From contig CANMWT010000010.1 of NCBI GenBank assembly GCA_947501635.1, positions 1 to 64,000 on the forward strand: 64,000 nt of DNA. The letters are read 5' to 3'. Origin of the DNA: an uncultured Roseobacter sp. GTDB taxonomy: Bacteria; Pseudomonadota; Alphaproteobacteria; Rhodobacterales; Rhodobacteraceae. This document shows positions 17,855 to 63,306 of this stretch, piece by piece. The translations under genes were made by a program, and so were the position numbers. The notes under the pieces are model-generated. The model was not told where the DNA came from and did not search any database. It saw only the letters and a program-made list of their open reading frames with translations. Position 1 is the stretch's first letter, and each line of letters opens with the position of its first letter.

Positions 17855-19171
17855 TCACTTTTCAGGGATCAAACCGCGCGGGCTGAAGCGCAAAACAAGC
17901 AAAAGCACCAACCCCATTGTGAACAGCCGCATATGTGCCGCAGACTCAATCAAATGCGCCTTCAAGGCCGATCCTTCTGCCATCCCCGACGTAATGACCT
18001 GCATCAGCCAAAGCCCCATGGGTTCCACCTGCACCCACAGAAACCAGATCAGAAAACCACCCAGAACCGCGCCAAAGTTGTTGCCCGAGCCACCAACAAT
18101 CACCATGACCCAAACTAGGAAGGTGAACCGCAGCGGCTGATATGTCCCGGGTGTCAACTGACCGTCCAGTGTGGTCATCATCGCGCCGGCAACACCACAA
18201 ATGGCAGAGCCCAGCACGAAAATCTGCAAATGCCGTGCAGTCACATCCTTGCCCATCGCTTCCGCGGCGACCTCGTTGTCCCGGATGGCCCGCATCATCC
18301 GCCCCCAGGGACTGTTGAGCGCGCGCTGCGCCAGAACAAGTAACAAAACAAGCACGACAGTAAACAGGCCCGCATACAGAAGCTTAACGTAAAGCGTGGA
18401 GGCCGTCACTGCGTCCAGACCGAAACCCGCCGCGCGTTCCACAAAAACAGGATCGTTCTGCAAGTCGATTTCATATGGTGTCGGCCGGGGCAACCCGACC
18501 ACGTTCTTCACACCCCGTGCCAGCCAGTCTTCATTTTTCAAAACGGCGATGATGATCTCGGCAATCCCGAGCGTGGCGATGGCCAGATAGTCAGACCGAA
18601 GACCCAGTGCGGTTTTGCCGATAACCCACGCAGCTCCTGCGGCAAACAAACCGCCAACAGGCCAGGCCAAAGCCACCCAGAGACCGCGATCAATGCCCAA
18701 GCCCCCAAGATTTCCGGTCAATGCGGGATTGATGGCCTCAACTGCAACGACACCGCTGTCAAAAAGCGCGCGGTAGCCGAAAAAACCTGCCACGATCAGA
18801 AAAAACACCGCGGCAGCTCTGGGCCATCCCGGCACCATCCGCTTGCGCAGCATGACCACGGCAATGATGACGCCAATTGCAAACACAAAGGCCGCCAGAA
18901 TGTTCCATCCTCCCGCTGACCAGGCCCCAGGCGTGGGTGATACACCCATCAACACAGCCGCAAGCCCACCCAGGGCGACAAATCCCATGATCCCGACGTT
19001 GAAGAGCCCCGCAAACCCCCATTGCAAGTTAACGCCCAACGCCATGATGGCCGAGATTAAACCCATATTCAGAACCACCAGCGCGGTGTTCCAACTCTGA
19101 CTGAACCCTGTGTAGAGGATCATCGCCCCCACAGCTGCGAAAAGCAGCGAGTTTTTCAAAACAGGGTTCAT
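17855..19171 (-). CDS. livM: Branched-chain amino acid ABC transporter permease LivM
   Basis: This is the second membrane subunit of the high-affinity Leu/Ile/Val-type importer. The 438 residues have about ten hydrophobic segments, with the LivM hallmark GLRSDYLAIATLGIAEII and a conserved coupling region SPWGRMMRAIRDNEVAAEAMGK. It is longer than the E. coli protein's core because of extra N-terminal hydrophobic residues and a periplasmic loop. It overlaps livH by four bases and is the last gene of the operon livJ-livG-livF-livH-livM. Confidence 0.93.
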   Translation of the reverse strand: MNPVLKNSLLFAAVGAMILYTGFSQSWNTALVVLNMGLISAIMALGVNLQWGFAGLFNVGIMGFVALGGLAAVLMGVSPTPGAWSAGGWNILAAFVFAIGVIIAVVMLRKRMVPGWPRAAAVFFLIVAGFFGYRALFDSGVVAVEAINPALTGNLGGLGIDRGLWVALAWPVGGLFAAGAAWVIGKTALGLRSDYLAIATLGIAEIIIAVLKNEDWLARGVKNVVGLPRPTPYEIDLQNDPVFVERAAGFGLDAVTASTLYVKLLYAGLFTVVLVLLLVLAQRALNSPWGRMMRAIRDNEVAAEAMGKDVTARHLQIFVLGSAICGVAGAMMTTLDGQLTPGTYQPLRFTFLVWVMVIVGGSGNNFGAVLGGFLIWFLWVQVEPMGLWLMQVITSGMAEGSALKAHLIESAAHMRLFTMGLVLLLVLRFSPRGLIPEK

Positions 19172-53376: not shown

Positions 53377-54345
53377 TCAATACCCCAGTGACGGATCCAC
53401 GACGTTCAATAACGGTTCGCCTTTCTGCCAGCGAGCAAGGTTGTGCAAGAAAAGCTCGAATGACGCTGTTTCCCAGCCTGCATGAACAGAAGAGCAATGC
53501 GGAGAGATAATCAGGTTCTCCGCTGCCCATAGCGCGCTTTCTACCGGTAAGGGTTCTGTTTCAAAGACATCACAGGCCGCGCCAGCAACATGCCCGGACA
53601 TGAGCGTATCAAAAAGCGCGGTTTGATCCACAACGCCACCGCGCGACACGTCGGCAAGGATTGCCCCCTGCTTCACTTCAGAAAAGGCCTGTCGCGACAT
53701 CAGGTTGCGCGTCGCAGGCGTTAGAGGTGTGCAAACAGCGATAAAATCAGCGCGGTGCAACTGGTCCAAAAGCTCGTCCGCCGCGAATACTTCGTCCACA
53801 TTCTCCATGGCGCGCGGTCGGGCGCGCGTCCCCAGAACCTTCATTCCAAATGCTTTGGCACGCTTAGCAATTGCGCGACCTGTGTGCCCGAGCCCGACGA
53901 TCAGAAGCGTTTTGCCGGATAGGGGCGCTACTGTTCTGCTGTTCCATTGGCGCGCCGCTTTGTCCTTTTGCAAACCCGCCACATCCAGCGTGAAATGGAG
54001 AAAACAGCCGAACACATATTCTGCCATCATATCTGCAGCGACGCCCGCGGCATTGGTCACGGTGGTGCGTTCAGTGTCCCAGTGCCCCAGATGGTCGGTA
54101 CCTGCGCCGCCATTGGCAATCCATTCAGGCCCTTCAGGTCCAAAAAGGGCGTCACGGGGATATCCGGGGGTGCCCGCGAAACGGACGGTGTAGACGATAT
54201 TGGGCCGGTACTCCCCGATGAGATCGGGCAGGGCCGCATAGCTGTTGGCTTCGCGAAAATCCGCAGTCGGGAAACGGTCGAGTAGCATCCGCCCGAGCGG
54301 GGCGGTGTTGTCATTGTGTAGGATGATACGCGGGCGTTCAGACAT
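53377..54345 (-). CDS. D-2-hydroxyacid dehydrogenase
   Basis: The 322-residue NAD(P)-dependent oxidoreductase has the GxGxxG dinucleotide motif VGLGHTGRAIAKRAKAFGM, the catalytic Arg in ADVSRGGVVDQ, the Glu in DVFETEPLP and the His in ISPHCSSVHAGWE. It interconverts a 2-oxo acid and a D-2-hydroxy acid. It is the last gene of the 53.4-60.0 kb operon, 93 bases after the racemase-like gene. The ATG at 54345 is chosen, as an earlier TTG at 54435 would give non-conserved residues. Confidence 0.88.
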   Translation of the reverse strand: MSERPRIILHNDNTAPLGRMLLDRFPTADFREANSYAALPDLIGEYRPNIVYTVRFAGTPGYPRDALFGPEGPEWIANGGAGTDHLGHWDTERTTVTNAAGVAADMMAEYVFGCFLHFTLDVAGLQKDKAARQWNSRTVAPLSGKTLLIVGLGHTGRAIAKRAKAFGMKVLGTRARPRAMENVDEVFAADELLDQLHRADFIAVCTPLTPATRNLMSRQAFSEVKQGAILADVSRGGVVDQTALFDTLMSGHVAGAACDVFETEPLPVESALWAAENLIISPHCSSVHAGWETASFELFLHNLARWQKGEPLLNVVDPSLGY

Positions 54346-54438
54346 TCTAGCTCTGCCTGCTGGGCTGTTTTTCGGCGGCCACTCTGATTTTTCCCGCAGG
54401 CGTGTCATGCCTGTCGGCGTTGGGGGCAAGTTCAAGTC

Positions 54439-55182
54439 TCATAGCCTATCTCCTGTCAGCAGTTGACCAAAGCCCGGCAGGGCGTCTGCGATACCGGCAA
54501 GCTGCAATGCTTGATACATCATCGCCTGATTTGAGGTGATCACCGGTTTGCCCAGCTTGTCTTCAAGCGCTTCAATCGTCTCGACGCTGCGCATGTCAGT
54601 GCACGACAGGACGATCGCCTCCGCGCTTTCGTGGTCTGCCGCATATCCCAGATCGAACACAGCCTGCAGGTCCAGCGCGCCCTGCCCGTAGTTGTCCAGC
54701 CTGTCGCTCACTTCGGACCTGTGAACGGTCTCGATCCCTTCTTGTGACAGAAAGCTGATGGCAGCCTCGTTGATCTGGGGCACGTAGGGCGAGGCAAAAC
54801 CGATGCGTGTGATGCCCAAAGCCTTGAGCGCATGGACCAAAGCGCCCGCTGCGGTCACCGTGGCGGCCCCGCTGGAGTGTTTGATCTTGGTCGCCAGCGC
54901 GCGATCAAAGGACGGCCCGTGGGTCAGCGTCGCCGATGTGCATCCATAAAAGATCACGTCCGGTTTTACCCCCTGCAAAAGGCGCAGTGGCTCTTCCAGA
55001 TCGGCCGCGCCAAGCCCGTGCATCTGGTCTGCATCCGGCACCGCGTCCTGATCGTACCCCCCCAGCCTCGCAAAGTGCAAAGACACCCCTTCGGGCCGCA
55101 GCAGGGCCATGTCCGGTTCAAGGTTTGTGTTTGTGAAGGGCACCAAAAGCCCGAAACGGGCGCGCCCACGCGATGTTGTCAT
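54439..55182 (-). CDS. Asp/Glu racemase-superfamily protein (maleate isomerase-like)
   Basis: The 247-residue protein shows the two-cysteine pattern of the superfamily: FYGCTSATLTHG near residue 80 and IVLSCTDMRS near residue 190, plus the opening GLLVPFTNTNLEPD that is typical of maleate cis-trans isomerases and arylmalonate decarboxylases. Reaction choices include racemisation, cis-trans isomerisation and decarboxylation. It overlaps the aminotransferase gene by four bases, so both belong to one pathway. Confidence 0.82.
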   Translation of the reverse strand: MTTSRGRARFGLLVPFTNTNLEPDMALLRPEGVSLHFARLGGYDQDAVPDADQMHGLGAADLEEPLRLLQGVKPDVIFYGCTSATLTHGPSFDRALATKIKHSSGAATVTAAGALVHALKALGITRIGFASPYVPQINEAAISFLSQEGIETVHRSEVSDRLDNYGQGALDLQAVFDLGYAADHESAEAIVLSCTDMRSVETIEALEDKLGKPVITSNQAMMYQALQLAGIADALPGFGQLLTGDRL

Positions 55183-56261
55183 GCCTCTTCCTCCCCAGCC
55201 CAGCGTTCCAAAACGGATGCGGCTTTGTCCATGTCAGCAGCCGCACCGACCGTTGCACGCAGGCAGTGCGCAAGCCCTGCGCCCCCTTGCGCGCGCAGGA
55301 TGACCCCTTCGGCGCGAAGAGCTTCATCCGCGCGTTGTGCCGCCTGTGCGTCTTTAAAACGAATGAGCACGAAGTTAGTGTGACTTTCGGCAATATCGAA
55401 GCCGCCGGCACGCAGCCTGCTGCAAAACAGCTCGCGTTGTGCTGCGGTCTTTGTGCACGTCGACACCATGTAGTCGTGATCCAACACCGCGGCATGTGCC
55501 GCCGCTTGCCCGCAGGACGAGACGTTGTTGGGGTTCATCACGCATCGCACGGCTTGCGCGATACCATGGGGAAAGTGACCCCACCCCACCCGCATGCCAG
55601 CAAGGCCGTATGCTTTAGAAAAAGTGCGCAAAATCACCGTATCGCCGCCGGCAACCAGATCGAATAGCGGTTCGTTCAGATGGTCGGCGAATTCGCCGTA
55701 AGCTTCGTCAATTATCAGCAGAATATCACTGCGCAGCCCGCTTCGCAGACGAACAAGCTCGGAACGGGGGATGCGCGTGCCGGTGGGATTTCCGGGATTG
55801 GCGACAAAGACAACGCGCGTGTCAGGCCGTACCGCGTCAAGCAAGGCATCCACCGACACCGTTTCCGCCACTTCGATCGCCTTGTCGAAACGGGCCCCCG
55901 CCAATTGTGTTGCGGTCTTGAAGAATGGATAGGCATGCGCCGGAGCAAGGACTGCGTTTTGCGGGCCGGCAAAAGCCTGCGCAAGACAGCCGATCAACTC
56001 CATGGAGCCGTTTGCGCATAAAATGTCATCTGCAGATATGCCGTGGCGGTCTGACAATGCGTCGCGCAGCGCAGTCCAGTTTGGGTCGGGATAAAGCTGC
56101 GCGTTGGAAGCAGCCTTTGCCGCAGATGTGATGGCACGCGGGCTTGGCGGCGACAGGCTTTCGTTTTGCGACAGGGATACAAGCCGCTTGCCGGCAGGCG
56201 CTTTCAGATCGGCCAGTGAATAGGCCGTCATTGCCGCAATATGTGGCATCGGTTTTATCAT
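55179..56261 (-). CDS. Histidinol-phosphate-aminotransferase-like PLP enzyme
   Basis: The 360-residue fold type I aminotransferase has the PLP lysine in RTFSKAYGLAGMRVGW, NPGNPTGTRIP and a C-terminal NFVLIRFKD. It resembles HisC, but location in a catabolic operon suggests a different amino donor or acceptor. It overlaps both neighbours by four bases. Confidence 0.86.
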   Translation of the reverse strand: MIKPMPHIAAMTAYSLADLKAPAGKRLVSLSQNESLSPPSPRAITSAAKAASNAQLYPDPNWTALRDALSDRHGISADDILCANGSMELIGCLAQAFAGPQNAVLAPAHAYPFFKTATQLAGARFDKAIEVAETVSVDALLDAVRPDTRVVFVANPGNPTGTRIPRSELVRLRSGLRSDILLIIDEAYGEFADHLNEPLFDLVAGGDTVILRTFSKAYGLAGMRVGWGHFPHGIAQAVRCVMNPNNVSSCGQAAAHAAVLDHDYMVSTCTKTAAQRELFCSRLRAGGFDIAESHTNFVLIRFKDAQAAQRADEALRAEGVILRAQGGAGLAHCLRATVGAAADMDKAASVLERWAGEEEA

Positions 56262-57907
56262 GATTTCAGCCCGTAAACATCCTGCGCTGCCTGTGAACTG
56301 ATGAGCCCGTCTTGAATGTCGCGCGCGATATCCTGCGTGCGCCGGTCCTCGGGAGGTCCGAAGCCGCCACCCCCTGGCGTTTCAAACACCAGTGTCTGGC
56401 CGCGGCGGACCGTGATCTCGCCTTTGCCTGGCAGGTCTGCGCCGGTATGGCCGATCCTGATCCGGCCCGCAGCACCGGGCAGTCCCCCGCTGCGACCCTG
56501 AGCGGGGTTCAACACCCGTTCAACCGAAAGAAACACCATAAAATCCTCATCTGTCGCAGATTGCAGCTCGATCTGCTGTCCCAGTCCACCGCGATACCGA
56601 CCCGCGCCGCCGCTGTCTTGCTTTAACTCGCGCCGCTTGAACAGTACGGGGGCAACCGCTTCTGTCGTTTCGATCTGCGAGCCCCAGACCCCCGACGGAA
56701 AGGCCGTCGCCGACAGACCGTCAAGCCCGGGCCGGGCGCCGGTGCCGCCATTAAAGACAAGCTCCAATGCGAATTGTGTCCCGCCGGACAGTGCTGCCTC
56801 GGCTACATGGCGCATCGGCAGATCATACATACAGGACGCTCCCTCTGCCGGAACTTTGTCTGGCAAGGCCTGAGACAGGCACCCATAGACAAGATCAGGT
56901 GTCATCTGACCAAGCGTATGGCGCATAGCCACGGGTGCAGGTGGTGGCGCGTTCAGGATGCAATCCTGCGGCGCTGTGACCTGAAACGGCGCAAGCGAGC
57001 CTGCATTGTTGGGAATATCCGGCCCGATGATGCAGCGCAGCGCGAAAACGGAATAGGCGGTGGCGTAGTTGAGCGGCACGTTGATGCCTTTGTTGGACAG
57101 ACCGGACGTGCCACTGAAATCCAGCAAAACCAGATCGGGTGTGATTGTCAGTGCGGCATGCAGGTCGATTTCCTTTTCATACCCGTCGACTTTGAGCTTG
57201 CTGTGCCAACTGCCGGCGGGCAGCGCGGCGATTGCGTCGATTGTCCCACGGTAAGACGTGTCGATGATGTAGTCAGCGAGATCATCAAGATGGTCGATCC
57301 CAAACTCAGACATCATACCCACCAGCCGCGCGGCACCGGCCTCGCAACAGGCGATCAAAGCGTAGATGTCGCCTTCGTTTGCCACCGGCTCGCGCGAATT
57401 GGATTTGACAATCTCCATCAACAGCGCGTTGAGCACGCCACCGTCCATTAGTTTGCATGGCGGAATGAGCAGGCCCTCGTCGTAGATATCCGCCCCTTCA
57501 GGCCCCATGCCCAAGCCCCCCAGATCTACAAGATGCGACGTACAAGAGGTAAAGCCGATAAGAGCGCCTCGGTGGAACACCGGCATCAACAACAAAAAAT
57601 CGTTGAGATGCCCAGAGGCAATCCACGGGTCATTCGTCAGGTAGATGTCGCCCGGTTTCATCTGCTCCAGCGCAAAGCGTGCGCGCAGCGTTTTTACCGC
57701 TTCGGCCATTGTGTTGATATGCCCGGGCGTGCCAGTGACGGCCTGTGCCAGCATGCGACCCTGCCGATCGAAAATCCCAGCCGAGATGTCTCCGCATTCA
57801 CGCACAATGGGGCTGAAGGCCGCGCGTATCAGCGCTTGGCCCTGTTCTTCGACCACCGCAAGCAGGCGGTTCCACATCACCTGGAGATCAGTATCAGCCA
57901 TGCTCAT
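56258..57907 (-). CDS. Hydantoinase B / oxoprolinase beta-type subunit
   Basis: The 549-residue protein matches HyuB: FSPIVRECGDISAGIFDRQG, PGDIYLTNDPWIASGHLNDF and GGGFGPPEDR at the C-terminus. With HyuA it forms an enzyme that hydrolyses or carboxylates cyclic amides and ketones (hydantoins, 5-oxoproline, acetone and acetophenone families). ATG 57907 has GGAGG seven bases upstream. It overlaps hyuA by 14 bases. Confidence 0.9.
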   Translation of the reverse strand: MSMADTDLQVMWNRLLAVVEEQGQALIRAAFSPIVRECGDISAGIFDRQGRMLAQAVTGTPGHINTMAEAVKTLRARFALEQMKPGDIYLTNDPWIASGHLNDFLLLMPVFHRGALIGFTSCTSHLVDLGGLGMGPEGADIYDEGLLIPPCKLMDGGVLNALLMEIVKSNSREPVANEGDIYALIACCEAGAARLVGMMSEFGIDHLDDLADYIIDTSYRGTIDAIAALPAGSWHSKLKVDGYEKEIDLHAALTITPDLVLLDFSGTSGLSNKGINVPLNYATAYSVFALRCIIGPDIPNNAGSLAPFQVTAPQDCILNAPPPAPVAMRHTLGQMTPDLVYGCLSQALPDKVPAEGASCMYDLPMRHVAEAALSGGTQFALELVFNGGTGARPGLDGLSATAFPSGVWGSQIETTEAVAPVLFKRRELKQDSGGAGRYRGGLGQQIELQSATDEDFMVFLSVERVLNPAQGRSGGLPGAAGRIRIGHTGADLPGKGEITVRRGQTLVFETPGGGGFGPPEDRRTQDIARDIQDGLISSQAAQDVYGLKS

Positions 57908-60002
57908 ATGTGTCCTCCTTGCGCCGTTGCAGCCAGATATTGCCATCCTCATCCATGCGCGCATCAAAATCCGCACTGACGAATGTGGTGGTCTGCGGTT
58001 CTGTGATAAGCGCCGGGCCTTCAAGGAAATCACCGGCACGCAACTCGGCGCGGTTGTACAGTCCTGCAGCGCGCCACTGGCGGGTGACATCGCAGAAAAC
58101 GGAGCGTTTGCCCGTGGCCTTGGCGGGTGTTCTAACCGGCGTTTGTACAGATTGCCTCACGGGCCGCGCTTTCGATGATACTTCGACCGCCCAATTTAGG
58201 ATTTCGATTTTCATACCGGGAACGGCGCGACTGAACTGACGGCTATATTCGTCTTCGAAAGCGCGTTGCAACAGCGGTACGTCCGCATCTGTAAGCCGAT
58301 GATCGGGCAGCGATATCTGAATTTCGTGACCCTGCCCATGGTACCGCATGTAGGCCGCACGCCGGTGCACAAGCGTGCCTTGCGGTGCACCGGCGCGGAC
58401 AAGGCTTTCTGCCTCATCTGCCATTGCATCAAGAAATCGGTTGAGCCCGTCCACATCCATAGTGTCCAGCGTGCAATACCGCGACCGCACGGTTTCGAAT
58501 GAAACAGGCGCGAACAGAAACCCTACGGCAGAGCCCACGCCGGGATTTTTAGGGATCAGGATGCGGTCGACCTGCGCGCGCCGCGCGACGCGTGTTGCAT
58601 GCAATGGACCATTGCCCCCAAATGCGATCATAACACGTGTTGACAGATCCTTGCCCGTTTCGACCGCATGCATCCGCCCTGCCCCGGCCATGTTTTCGTT
58701 TACGATTTCACTCACGCCATGGGCCGCGCCCGTAGCGTCCATCCCCATCGGAAGCCCAACCGCCGCCTCAAGCGCACGACTGGCGGCCTGCGTATCCATC
58801 TCAAGTCGCCCCTCGGCAAACAGCTTCGGATCGATCAGACCCAGTGTCACATCCGCATCCGTCACAGTCGCATGCGTCCCGCCTTTGGCAAAGGCTGCGG
58901 GTCCGGGGACGGAACCTGCACTTTCAGGCCCGATCTGCAAGCGTCCCAACCGATCCACATGCGCAATCGAACCGCCCCCGGCACCGATTTCGATCATTTC
59001 GATAACGGGGATACGTACTGGCATGCCTGACCCTTTGATGAACCTCTCGGCGCGGGCAATCTCGAATCTGCGTGTGGTCAGCGGACGGAATTCATCAATC
59101 AGACAAAGCTTGGCGGTTGTCCCGCCCATATCAAAACTCAACACTTCGGCTTCGTTGGTTTCAGCGGCGATACGCGCGGCAAGAATGGCGCCACCGGCTG
59201 GTCCACTCTCGACGAGGCGGATTGGCAACCGTGCGGCCGTCTCGATGGTGGTCATTCCGCCCCCAGCGGTCATCATCAGGATCGGACACATCAGACCCAT
59301 TGCAGTAAATCGCGCCTGAAACCCGGCAAGGTAGCCGGCCATAAGGGGCTGGATGTATGCATTTGCAATCGTCGTGGACAGTCGGTCAAATTCGCGCGCT
59401 TCTGGGCTGACCTCATGAGACAGCGAAATTACCAGTTCAGGCAGTGCCGCCGTCAGCATTTCGCGCAGCCGCAATTCATGGGCGGGATTTGCATAGGCGT
59501 GCATCAGGCAGACGGCGACGGCCTGCACACCACTATTGGCCAGCTCCTTTGTCAACGCCGCAACGCCGGCTTCGTCGAAGGGTTCGACCTCCGCGCCGGT
59601 GGCGGTCATGCGGCCTGCGATCGTAAAGGCGCGCGCGCGCGGCACCAGCAGGTCCGGCTTGACCAGATTGATGTCATATTGGCTGTAGCGCCGCTCGTAG
59701 GCGATCTCCAGAATGTCGCGAAACCCTGCAGTCGTAACCGTTGCTACCACCGCCCCGCGCCGTTCAATCAAAGCATTGGTGGCCAGTGTCGTGCCGTGAA
59801 TAAAACCTTCGATCTGTGACCATCCCGCGCCTGCCTCGGTCAGAACGCGCTCCGCGCCTTCAAGCGCGCCAAGCGTCGGGTTCAACGGCGTGGTCGGCGT
59901 TTTGGTCGTTGCAAGGATGGTGTCATGCACATCGGCTAACACAGTGTCAGTAAATGTGCCGCCGATATCTATAGCCAGGCGGAGCCTGTTCGAGTTTTGC
60001 AT
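57894..60002 (-). CDS. Hydantoinase A / oxoprolinase alpha-type subunit
   Basis: The 702-residue ATP-binding subunit starts LAIDIGGTFTDTVLAD. It has HGTTLATNALIERRGAVVA and SFDMGGTTAKLCLIDE, the phosphate-binding turns of the ASKHA-like fold. It is the first gene of the operon. ATP-dependent cleavage or carboxylation of a cyclic or keto substrate is likely; the exact compound is not determined. Confidence 0.92.
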   Translation of the reverse strand: MQNSNRLRLAIDIGGTFTDTVLADVHDTILATTKTPTTPLNPTLGALEGAERVLTEAGAGWSQIEGFIHGTTLATNALIERRGAVVATVTTAGFRDILEIAYERRYSQYDINLVKPDLLVPRARAFTIAGRMTATGAEVEPFDEAGVAALTKELANSGVQAVAVCLMHAYANPAHELRLREMLTAALPELVISLSHEVSPEAREFDRLSTTIANAYIQPLMAGYLAGFQARFTAMGLMCPILMMTAGGGMTTIETAARLPIRLVESGPAGGAILAARIAAETNEAEVLSFDMGGTTAKLCLIDEFRPLTTRRFEIARAERFIKGSGMPVRIPVIEMIEIGAGGGSIAHVDRLGRLQIGPESAGSVPGPAAFAKGGTHATVTDADVTLGLIDPKLFAEGRLEMDTQAASRALEAAVGLPMGMDATGAAHGVSEIVNENMAGAGRMHAVETGKDLSTRVMIAFGGNGPLHATRVARRAQVDRILIPKNPGVGSAVGFLFAPVSFETVRSRYCTLDTMDVDGLNRFLDAMADEAESLVRAGAPQGTLVHRRAAYMRYHGQGHEIQISLPDHRLTDADVPLLQRAFEDEYSRQFSRAVPGMKIEILNWAVEVSSKARPVRQSVQTPVRTPAKATGKRSVFCDVTRQWRAAGLYNRAELRAGDFLEGPALITEPQTTTFVSADFDARMDEDGNIWLQRRKEDTYEHG

Positions 60003-60276: not shown

Positions 60277-63200
60277 TCAGTCGCCAGACCCTGTGTAGCC
60301 CGCAACCACCTGCAGCAGTTTGAACGATGTGGCGGCATCATTCTCGACAACGGCGAGGAACTCTTCAGCCCCAAGTCGCAAGGCCTCGATCTCGGTCTCC
60401 GCGCGCATGGTCAACGCTCGTGGCACATTGCGGATCAGACCCAATTCTCCGACGATCGTGCCGGCCCCCACGGTTGCGATAAGTTGCGGCTCGCCTCCTT
60501 CGATGGGGTTATACAAACCAGCAGAGCCCGACAACAGCATGTAAGCCCCGTCCGTCGGGTCGTCATTCTTGGAAAAAATCACCTCTCCGGGTGCTGCATG
60601 GAACCACTTGGCTCCAAAGGCCAGAAGCCGCAGTTGCTTGCGGTCCAAACCCGAGAAAAGGTCTGTTCTCTCCAGCGCGCGCACTTTCCTTTGCAAATCC
60701 AGCGTCGCGGCGGAATCGTCACCGGTTTCGAACGCGGGCTCGGCCGTTAGCATCCGCCCTTGCGACACTTCCAGATGCATGTCGAAATAGTCAGGATTTT
60801 CAAAGCTGTCGGAGATGTAAATGAGCGTGGTATCCGGCAGCAACTTGCGCAGGTTCTTGTGTACCATGACGCGCAGCTTCTGATCGTAGGAAGACAAGAC
60901 TTGCTCCATGATCAGGATATCCGGTCGCTTGATCGCGGCACGGATCAATGCGAGGGGTTCGGCAAAAATGGCTGGCAGGTTTGCGCCCCCCAGCTCCAGC
61001 GGCAGATCATAAATCAAGTCTGTGACCGCTGGCTTGAGCCCCTCTTCCTCAAGGATATCGGCAACGATCTTGCGCACTTCATCCGCCTTGCTGCCCGCAC
61101 CGTCAGACAGCTTGCCGAACAAAGCGTTTTCAAGCAGCGACATGCCTTCCGCAATCCGATCGGGATCGAGCGGCGCATACGTCACGCCCAAGGCGTCCTT
61201 CAGCTTGTCGCGGTGCTCCACCCGCTTTGTCAGGATGCTGTCCTGCATCTCGGCAGTGAATGCCGGACCGATCTGTTCGGCCGAGATCTGGGCAGGCAGG
61301 CTCATCAGAATTGCCTTGTCACCCGCGCTCAATGCTTCAAGTGAACCTTGTTGCACAGAGCGAACCACCTCTACAGATTTTTCGAACAGCGCGGGATCCA
61401 ATCCCAGTTTGCGAAACAGCGGGTGTTCGGTGCCGTCAGTGCCAAAAATTTTGTTGAGAACTTCGATCACATCGGACGACAAACGCAACAGCTCATTCTC
61501 CAGACCCAGCCGGGCCATCAACTCGAAAAGCGGTTTTTGCTGCGACAGTTCCTGCTGGTTCATCGGGCGTTTCAGGCTCGCAAAAAACAGGTTGCTGGCA
61601 ACCGGCAGAGCGGGATTGTAGCGCGCGGGGTCAAAGCGGTAGACGTACCGGGAGAGCCCCGCTTCCTCGACAGCCGCCCAGACTTTGGACCGGATGGCCA
61701 CGATACGGTCTTGCAAATCACGCGAAACACAAGCGTCAATCACTTGGTCCAGCGACTTGCGGAACATGGGGCCATCCGATCCGATTGCTTCGATCAGGGC
61801 GAGCCACCATGCGCGCAGGTCGGTTTCGTTCTCGGCGCCCGCCCGCTTTGGATCGAGCCACTCCGCATCGAAAGGATCCACACTGTTGCCGGAGGCCAGA
61901 GCTTCGGCCAGCGCTGCGTTTTCACCGTCTTCTTGCTTTAAGTGTGGGCTGTTTCGTACTGGCATCATTGCATTTTCACCAAATGAACCGCGGAAGAGAA
62001 CCGGCCGTGAGTTTGCATGGCCGATCCGCGCGGCAATTGTCGCCTGATGAAGCGTGTTCAGTTCATGTTCGCCAATCTTCAAGGTGCCTGTGGTGGGGGT
62101 CAGTTCCCGCGTGAGAACGTCTGCCAATGCGTGCCTGTCCTCTTCGCTGGCCGCTTCGATGCCGACCAGCGCGCCGGGTTCTATGTTAAACGAGATGTTT
62201 TCCAGCACAGTGTTGCCATCGCCATCGTTGACCGACACGTCGCGCAGGACAACAGCGCCCTTGAGGTTGGGGATTTCGGCGGGCGTTTCCAGCATCAACC
62301 GCTCGTCGATCACGCCCGGTGGTGAGAATTTTTCGATCACCGTTTCCCAGCGCAGGCTCATGTCCTGTGCCTGATTGTAGTAAGTCAGCAGCTCTTTCCA
62401 TGGCGAGCTGAGGTCCTTGTATGCGGCAAGGGCTGCAACCAAAGCCCCCAGCGATACGGCACCTTGAATGACAAGGTAGCCACCGATCGAGAAAAAGAAA
62501 AACGGTGTAAGCTGTGTAATGAAGTTATTGATAAACTTCATGAAAAACTTTTTCTGATAGATTTTGAATCGAATACCGAAGACAATGCCCAGACGATCGG
62601 TGATCATGGACAACCGGTACCGCCAGCCGCCGTTCTCGCGCAGATCGCTTGCGCCGGCTGCGCTCTCTCCGATCATGGCGGCAAGCTTTCTGACTTCCTT
62701 AATGCGTTCTTTGTTCATCAGATTGATCTGACGCTGCAATTTCGGGATCAGCCAGGCTTGCAACGGGATCAACGCGATGGCTGCCAGCCCGAACCAGAAG
62801 CTTTGCAGAAACAGAAAGAAAAGGATGGTCAGCATTTGCCCTGCCTGCAAGACGGGTTGCGTGAGGGCATCCCCCATCATCCCACCCATGGGTTCGGTTT
62901 CGCCGGTCACCATTGCGACCAATTCGCCTTGCGAGGTGCGTTGGAAATAGGGTTTTGGAAAGCGCAGCATCCGGGCAATGAGCCCATAGCGGAGTCTTCG
63001 AAGCATCCGTTCGGACAGCACGCCTTTCATGGTGTTGATTCGCATTTTCAGCAAACCGTGGACCAGTACCGCCAACAGAAACGCGATGCAGAGCAGGCCC
63101 AAGAACTGGATTTGGTCCAATGCTACACCAAAAAAATCGATTTGAGAGGATTGCGCGCCAATAGCGTCGTTGATGATCCTTTTGGGCAGCTCAAGGGTCA

Positions 63201-63306
63201 GAAAAAGAAATGGAAACAGGCATATAGTGACCGCAAGCAAGACGAATTGGTCTCGTTTGGAATGTTTCCAAATGAATTGAAACAGTGTCTTTTCGATCTT
63301 TCGCAC
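60277..63306 (-). CDS. ABC-exporter-like protein with degenerate ATPase and cyclic nucleotide-binding domain
   Basis: The 1009-residue protein has a type I exporter membrane domain (about 1-320, six helices). Its nucleotide-binding domain is unlike any working ABC: at the Walker A position (381-389) the sequence reads VGIEAASEE with no GKS/T. The Q-loop reads NSRPVLFRGSFGEN, with S for Q. About 280 residues (450-730) are inserted. The signature is ELGGAN, Walker B reads ILIMEQ instead of LLLDE, and the H-loop is ISDSF. Residues about 880-1005 form a cNMP-binding domain (LFSGLDRKQLRLLAFGAKWF, GTIVGELGLI, RNVPRALTM). It should not hydrolyse ATP by the ABC mechanism. It may be a regulated channel or scaffold; no partner gene is adjacent. 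Confidence 0.85.
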   Translation of the reverse strand: MRKIEKTLFQFIWKHSKRDQFVLLAVTICLFPFLFLTLELPKRIINDAIGAQSSQIDFFGVALDQIQFLGLLCIAFLLAVLVHGLLKMRINTMKGVLSERMLRRLRYGLIARMLRFPKPYFQRTSQGELVAMVTGETEPMGGMMGDALTQPVLQAGQMLTILFFLFLQSFWFGLAAIALIPLQAWLIPKLQRQINLMNKERIKEVRKLAAMIGESAAGASDLRENGGWRYRLSMITDRLGIVFGIRFKIYQKKFFMKFINNFITQLTPFFFFSIGGYLVIQGAVSLGALVAALAAYKDLSSPWKELLTYYNQAQDMSLRWETVIEKFSPPGVIDERLMLETPAEIPNLKGAVVLRDVSVNDGDGNTVLENISFNIEPGALVGIEAASEEDRHALADVLTRELTPTTGTLKIGEHELNTLHQATIAARIGHANSRPVLFRGSFGENAMMPVRNSPHLKQEDGENAALAEALASGNSVDPFDAEWLDPKRAGAENETDLRAWWLALIEAIGSDGPMFRKSLDQVIDACVSRDLQDRIVAIRSKVWAAVEEAGLSRYVYRFDPARYNPALPVASNLFFASLKRPMNQQELSQQKPLFELMARLGLENELLRLSSDVIEVLNKIFGTDGTEHPLFRKLGLDPALFEKSVEVVRSVQQGSLEALSAGDKAILMSLPAQISAEQIGPAFTAEMQDSILTKRVEHRDKLKDALGVTYAPLDPDRIAEGMSLLENALFGKLSDGAGSKADEVRKIVADILEEEGLKPAVTDLIYDLPLELGGANLPAIFAEPLALIRAAIKRPDILIMEQVLSSYDQKLRVMVHKNLRKLLPDTTLIYISDSFENPDYFDMHLEVSQGRMLTAEPAFETGDDSAATLDLQRKVRALERTDLFSGLDRKQLRLLAFGAKWFHAAPGEVIFSKNDDPTDGAYMLLSGSAGLYNPIEGGEPQLIATVGAGTIVGELGLIRNVPRALTMRAETEIEALRLGAEEFLAVVENDAATSFKLLQVVAGYTGSGD

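Follow-up and report, generated by a model that had tools for sequence, protein, structure and literature searches.

How can a polypeptide built like an ATP-binding cassette (ABC) exporter be maintained once every core residue of its ATP-using site has been replaced, and what might it do instead? The question is raised by a gene at positions 60277..63306 of a 64,000-nucleotide stretch of DNA from an uncultured Roseobacter sp. (assembly GCA_947501635.1, contig CANMWT010000010.1, positions 1 to 64,000; hereafter, the window). ABC exporters are defined by their use of ATP. An original prediction, made from the sequence alone, described the product as a pseudo-ABC exporter with a normal membrane domain, no remaining ATPase motif, about 280 extra residues and a cyclic-nucleotide-binding (cNMP-binding) tail. 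The gene is real; it lies on the minus strand, with a GTG start at 63306 and 1009 codons plus stop, and its relatives align to it over nearly the full length. According to our best reading, in which our confidence is evenly balanced, the protein would act in a surface-glycan pathway as a gate, flippase or scaffold that responds to a cyclic nucleotide and does without ATP. What the analysis shows is the predicted fold, the motif loss, the conserved cNMP pocket, purifying selection, and co-inheritance with and adjacency to glycan genes.

The N-terminal part of the protein (residues 1-340; 62287..63306, minus strand, as for all parts of the gene given below) is an exporter-type transmembrane domain, as anticipated: ABC_membrane (PF00664) scores 67.6 bits against a cut-off of 28, the model shows the corresponding helices, the first long one starting at residue 8, and the fold matches are exporters. 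The nucleotide-binding domain (NBD) follows in two parts. Residues 341-455 (61942..62286), with model strands between 352 and 432, align to the NBD of ComA, and residues 761-860 (60727..61026) are assigned by the model and by fold matches; by this structural check an ABC fold is predicted to remain. ABC_tran (PF00005) reaches 14.6 bits on the window protein, under its cut-off of 25, and 46.9-56.1 bits in three distant relatives.

For the motifs, 4s0f, a solved bacteriocin transporter which we take to be PCAT1, served as the reference together with the family alignment. None of the seven core residues (Walker A Lys and Ser/Thr, Q-loop Gln, signature Ser, Walker B Asp, catalytic Glu and switch His) is retained in the window protein. 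At the Walker A position (residues 383-393; 62128..62160), Lys is replaced by R391 and Ser/Thr by H392; at the Q-loop position (residues 427-438; 61993..62028), Gln is replaced by S433; LPAIF stands in place of LSGGQ at the signature position (residues 777-781; 60964..60978); the Walker B position (residues 797-802; 60901..60918) carries E801 for Asp, which is a mild change, and Q802 for the catalytic Glu; and the switch His position is D833 (60808..60810). The window protein is, as modelled, a predicted exporter fold whose ATP-using site has been lost.

These replacements are not peculiar to one genome. A contig scan found 317 stretches encoding a relative, of which the best 80 of 317 (57-74% identity) were kept; nearly all of these 80 come from records titled Rhodobacteraceae, Roseobacteraceae or their genera, and a few from records titled only Alphaproteobacteria. 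Together with later loci they form a set of 89 near relatives (at least 45% identity over the alignment, listed values 48-74%). One of these, L058, stems from a record whose title, Nocardioides marinus, names an actinobacterium; the assembly is probably mislabelled or mixed. In 88 of the 89, the frame is open and all parts are kept; the exception is L044, from a metagenome assembly, whose frame is broken and which was excluded. All 88 are fused to the cNMP domain. Lys391, Gln433, Glu802 and His833 each occur in none of them, Ser/Thr392 in three, the signature Ser in five and Asp801 in 53, while the replacing residues are themselves conserved, with R391 in 86/88 and A393, P435, E783 and R789 in 88/88 each. 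Median ratios of nonsynonymous to synonymous change (dN/dS; 329 pairs from 54 sequences, simple NG86 counting) are 0.19 for the membrane domain, 0.28-0.29 for the NBD, 0.37 for the insert and 0.19 for the cNMP domain. The expectation of an intact frame under selection, with conserved replacements, is thereby borne out. Median identity to the window protein is 75.7% for the membrane domain, 54.4% for the NBD and 70.2% for the cNMP domain, the NBD exceeding the membrane domain in 0/88, whereas in a canonical exporter, set against 28 relatives in the same bacterial family, the membrane domain (71.7%) and the NBD (72.6%) are on a par, the NBD being the better conserved in 13 of the 28. Constraint has moved off the ATP site and remains on the membrane and cNMP domains.

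The family extends across the class. In a class-wide draw, 96/289 genomes contain a match (E≤1e-60); in a draw from the phylum, 21/299 do, all those listed belonging to the same class or family (the number of the 299 lying outside the class is not stated). We aligned 76 distant alphaproteobacterial relatives, comprising part of the hit lists, with better scores favoured, and two plasmid loci. Among them, Lys391 is present in 44, Gln433 in 15, the signature Ser in 39, the catalytic Glu in 42 and the switch His in 22; Ser/Thr392 occurs in 5, mostly with Asp or Glu there instead, and the Walker B Asp in 10, mostly with Asn or Ser there instead. All seven residues are found together in 0/164 relatives, the best (L169) having six, and the GG of LSGGQ likewise in 0/164. 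Across the class, motif loss in this family is graded; it is total or almost total only close to the window, and the original prediction is corrected on this point. Orthologues with intact motifs had been named as a sign of decay; distant relatives do keep part of the motifs, yet none keeps all seven, and the motif-less copies are not decayed. A second pseudo-ABC, 50% identical, is encoded in the window's genome on contig C6, and its motifs are gone as well, except for the Walker B Asp. Three distant members (L199, L209 and L173) have unusually long open frames of about 950-1340 codons.

The signal end of the protein is the cNMP-binding domain (residues 904-990; 60337..60597), to which PF00027 matches with 62.2 bits against a cut-off of 27.5. 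Its phosphate-binding cassette, GELGLIRNVPRALT (residues 953-966; 60409..60450), has conserved pocket residues: Gly953 and Arg963 are present in 88/88 near relatives and in all 67 cNMP proteins that are encoded separately in distant ones, and Glu954 in 82/88 and 64/67, respectively. The window protein has both the cassette Glu (E954) and Arg (R963). The cyclic-nucleotide pocket is retained and looks intact, judged by its residues. The cassette pattern, GELxLIxxxPRA, is presumably of the eukaryotic type; the residue following its Arg is Thr in 60/67 separate proteins and Ala in 79/88 fused ones, an exchange which, from work on kinases, may shift the preference between cGMP and cAMP. The predicted tail is thus real, but as a fused domain it is not general: in 67/76 distant relatives, a separate cNMP gene, mostly of ~150 codons, lies on the same strand directly downstream, 66 of the 67 starting at most 200 bases from the pseudo-ABC end or overlapping it and one 615 bases away. 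The remaining distant relatives include six fused proteins and three without a called cNMP domain (L173 matches in an overlapping frame), so that 94 of the 164 relatives have the domain fused, 67 have it as an adjacent gene and three have none called. In a tree of 97 rows (the window protein, 20 near and 76 distant relatives; quick method, insert and tail columns excluded), 27 fused proteins form one clade with a support of 97. The window's genome has 12 nucleotidyl-cyclase matches above the family cut-off and 17 cNMP-domain matches, 16 of them above cut-off.

A link to cell-surface sugars is provided by gene neighbourhood and co-inheritance. At many distant loci, a divergent operon adjoins the pseudo-ABC gene, mostly on the other strand and upstream, encoding, by Pfam names, a GT28-like protein, two GT4 proteins, a histidine phosphatase, a second GT28-like protein and a DUF2334 protein, the latter presumably deacetylase-like; the matches of the first GT28-like and the DUF2334 protein fall just under the Pfam cut-offs. 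A Methyltransf_17 (PF12692) gene lies downstream of the cNMP gene. At least five of the six glycan genes are close to the pseudo-ABC in 48/76 distant loci, and none of the seven genes is nearby in 14/76 distant and 79/88 near loci, where some stretches stop at contig ends. Among the 289 genomes, the pseudo-ABC and the first glycosyltransferase (called at E≤1e-40) occur together in 90, alone in six and three, respectively, and neither occurs in 190; that is, the glycosyltransferase is found in 90/96 genomes having the pseudo-ABC and in 3/193 without it. Within the 90, the two start coordinates are at most 7 kb apart in 64 and at most 50 kb apart in four more. The phi coefficient with the pseudo-ABC is 0.93 for the first glycosyltransferase and 0.79 for Methyltransf_17, compared with 0.21 for the control Wzz, another patchy surface-polysaccharide family; 70/71 genomes having Methyltransf_17 also have the pseudo-ABC, and none of the 14 control genomes has Methyltransf_17. 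On an annotated Sulfitobacter plasmid, a relative adjoins glycosyltransferases, a histidine phosphatase and a polysaccharide deacetylase, and in R. johnstonii 3841, three glycosyltransferases and an ABC importer precede the pseudo-ABC and cNMP genes.

Contig C15 of the window's genome carries the glycan operon in unchanged order, with 4-base overlaps between several of the genes. Beside it lies a four-gene ABC importer (L225:2819-8721), by eye composed of a double ATPase, a substrate-binding protein and two permeases, and two Methyltransf_17 genes (L225:2194-2679 and 18242-18736) flank the importer and glycan region. Open reading frames (ORFs) like this importer ATPase are near the pseudo-ABC in 46/76 distant loci; therefore, the importer may belong to the glycan pathway. 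The same-strand neighbours of the window gene itself (53377-60002, minus strand) resemble, by eye, a catabolic operon with hydantoinase/oxoprolinase A and B subunits, an aminotransferase, an Asp/Glu racemase-like protein and a D-2-hydroxyacid dehydrogenase. A search of a partial paper library recognised no description of the family or of the glycan pathway, in line with the earlier statement that no characterised member was known.

The insert (residues 456-760; 61027..61941) makes the window protein 288 residues longer than 4s0f between residues 449 and 764, close to the first estimate, and is present in all 164 relatives, with a Q-loop-to-signature spacing of 335-344 residues in the 88 near and 321-420 in the 76 distant ones. 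A Pfam search of residues 456-765 gave no match. Modelled alone, the insert yields a confident, mostly helical structure (pLDDT 85.4, pTM 0.80), without a clear match to any solved fold in the PDB. In the alignment of distant relatives, window residues ~520-645 and ~680-800 align mutually over 83 columns (hhalign score 95, E 9.5e-17 as a single comparison; 20 column shuffles ≤15.9), defining repeat unit 2 (~residues 529-600; 61507..61722) and repeat unit 3 (~residues 685-757; 61036..61254), the latter, also seen in the model, running into the signature position. Within one protein, L171, two chosen 130-residue pieces show 33% identity over 80 columns by blastp (E 4e-9). The signal is weaker in near relatives (37.6 vs ≤20.5 in shuffles). 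The order of structural elements is the same in both units: in the insert model, a strand-helix-strand element at 100-102/114-119/121-123 recurs at 255-257/269-274/276-278, offset by exactly 155. The Q-loop region, a possible repeat unit 1, weakly resembles unit 2 in the distant set (score 32, other windows ≤17.4), with no likeness in near relatives (score 12). Rather than being a foreign domain, the insert contains two repeats of one unit weakly resembling the NBD Q-loop region, and is read as a duplication of the helical unit after the Q-loop. Long Q-loop-to-signature spacing, the internal repeat and a cNMP domain fused or next door are the marks of the family, and the window protein fits them.

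With the ATP site lost, the cNMP pocket kept and the family travelling with glycan genes, the pseudo-ABC probably takes part, under the control of a signal, in assembling cell-surface sugars. It would form a homodimer whose NBDs no longer use ATP; a cyclic nucleotide would bind the C-terminal domain, and the signal may pass via the enlarged pseudo-NBD, with its Q-loop/helical unit repeats, to reshape the membrane domain. The latter might gate, flip or dock the putatively lipid-linked product of the glycosyltransferases and so serve glycan assembly or crossing. A wider reading, which we regard as tentative and rather doubtful, would extend this to a class-wide family: its members would have given up ATP use, their NBD would have been rebuilt with copies of its own Q-loop/helical unit, and the membrane domain, driven by a cyclic nucleotide, would gate or flip the glycolipid of an undescribed, co-inherited glycan operon.

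With type IV (ABCB-like) exporters, such as MsbA, PCAT1, TmrAB and TM287/288, the window protein shares the folds of the membrane domain and the NBD, but differs in lacking the core catalytic residues and in its ~288 extra NBD residues and cNMP tail. HetC of Nostoc is likewise an ABC exporter whose polypeptide includes a cNMP-binding domain required for its function; in HetC, however, this domain is N-terminal, a peptidase domain is present and an ATPase residue is needed (PMC10986499). In the window protein, the cNMP domain is C-terminal, the ATPase motifs are lost and no peptidase was matched, C39 peptidase not being among its Pfam matches up to E 1. SUR2B and CFTR, ABC proteins that are not pumps, put an exporter fold to regulatory or channel use, and SUR2B heads the fold-match list, tied with others; within what was tested, the fold alone is shared, and SUR2B and CFTR themselves retain nucleotide binding.

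Several points weigh against a glycan-linked, ATP-independent and cyclic-nucleotide-responsive role. Since distant members retain Lys (44/76) and the catalytic Glu (42/76), ATP binding may persist in some of them. That the pocket residues are conserved need not make cAMP or cGMP the ligand: the HetC cNMP domain bound ppGpp rather than cAMP (PMC10986499). At least five of the six glycan genes are nearby in only 1/88 near-relative loci, and the window's own genome has the operon on a different contig from the window gene. In the co-inheritance counts, which are uncorrected for phylogeny, the pseudo-ABC stands without the glycosyltransferase in six genomes and the glycosyltransferase without the pseudo-ABC in three, and in 22 of the 90 with both, the pair is far apart or on different contigs.

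Among rival explanations, an unlikely one is a scaffold facing purely into the cytoplasm, which would anchor the glycosyltransferases at the membrane under the control of cNMP but transport nothing. The repeated, mostly helical insert, confidently modelled and without a clear PDB match, could be a docking surface; the membrane domain, however, is the most constrained region of the protein. Quite improbable is a cyclic-nucleotide-gated ion or solute channel on an exporter fold, CFTR-like. The membrane and cNMP domains are indeed the best conserved, and the cassette pattern is of presumed eukaryotic type. Nothing indicates ions, though, and the co-inherited partners are glycosyltransferases.

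It is very unlikely that the protein is half of a heterodimeric ABC exporter borrowing the ATPase of an intact partner. Degenerate halves of such exporters are well known, TM287/288 and BmrCD are among the fold matches, NBD catalytic residues are lost here too, and a partner could be encoded elsewhere, as the window's genome has other exporters. In heterodimeric exporters, the degenerate half contributes an intact signature to the working site; in the window protein, the signature is lost together with Walker A, which argues against such a half, and the pseudo-ABC should therefore not complete a partner's active site. Moreover, the sequence covered around the window gene (L089) contains no other exporter-like ORF, nor does that at any of the 76 distant loci; among the 88 near loci the one exception is L138, where a secretion-type ABC exporter is encoded in the neighbourhood. 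There, another pseudo-ABC copy (L138:7946-11080, genome G154) is placed behind a type I secretion-like ABC gene and an apparent membrane-fusion gene; pseudo-ABC copies of one genome occur in quite different settings. Finally, a decaying duplicate of an ordinary exporter, the C6 copy doing the work, is hardly credible: the paralogue exists, evolution is quicker in the NBD than in the membrane domain and L044 is broken, but 88 other frames are open with conserved replacements, dN/dS medians are 0.19-0.37, and the C6 copy has itself lost the motifs save for the Walker B Asp.

A cyclic-nucleotide-responsive component of surface-glycan assembly without ATP use remains our best reading of the window gene. 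A family that keeps the machine of an exporter, drops its engine and adds a second-messenger sensor would show a route by which a pump becomes a regulator, and it offers a lead to a glycan pathway common to root-nodule, soil and sea bacteria.
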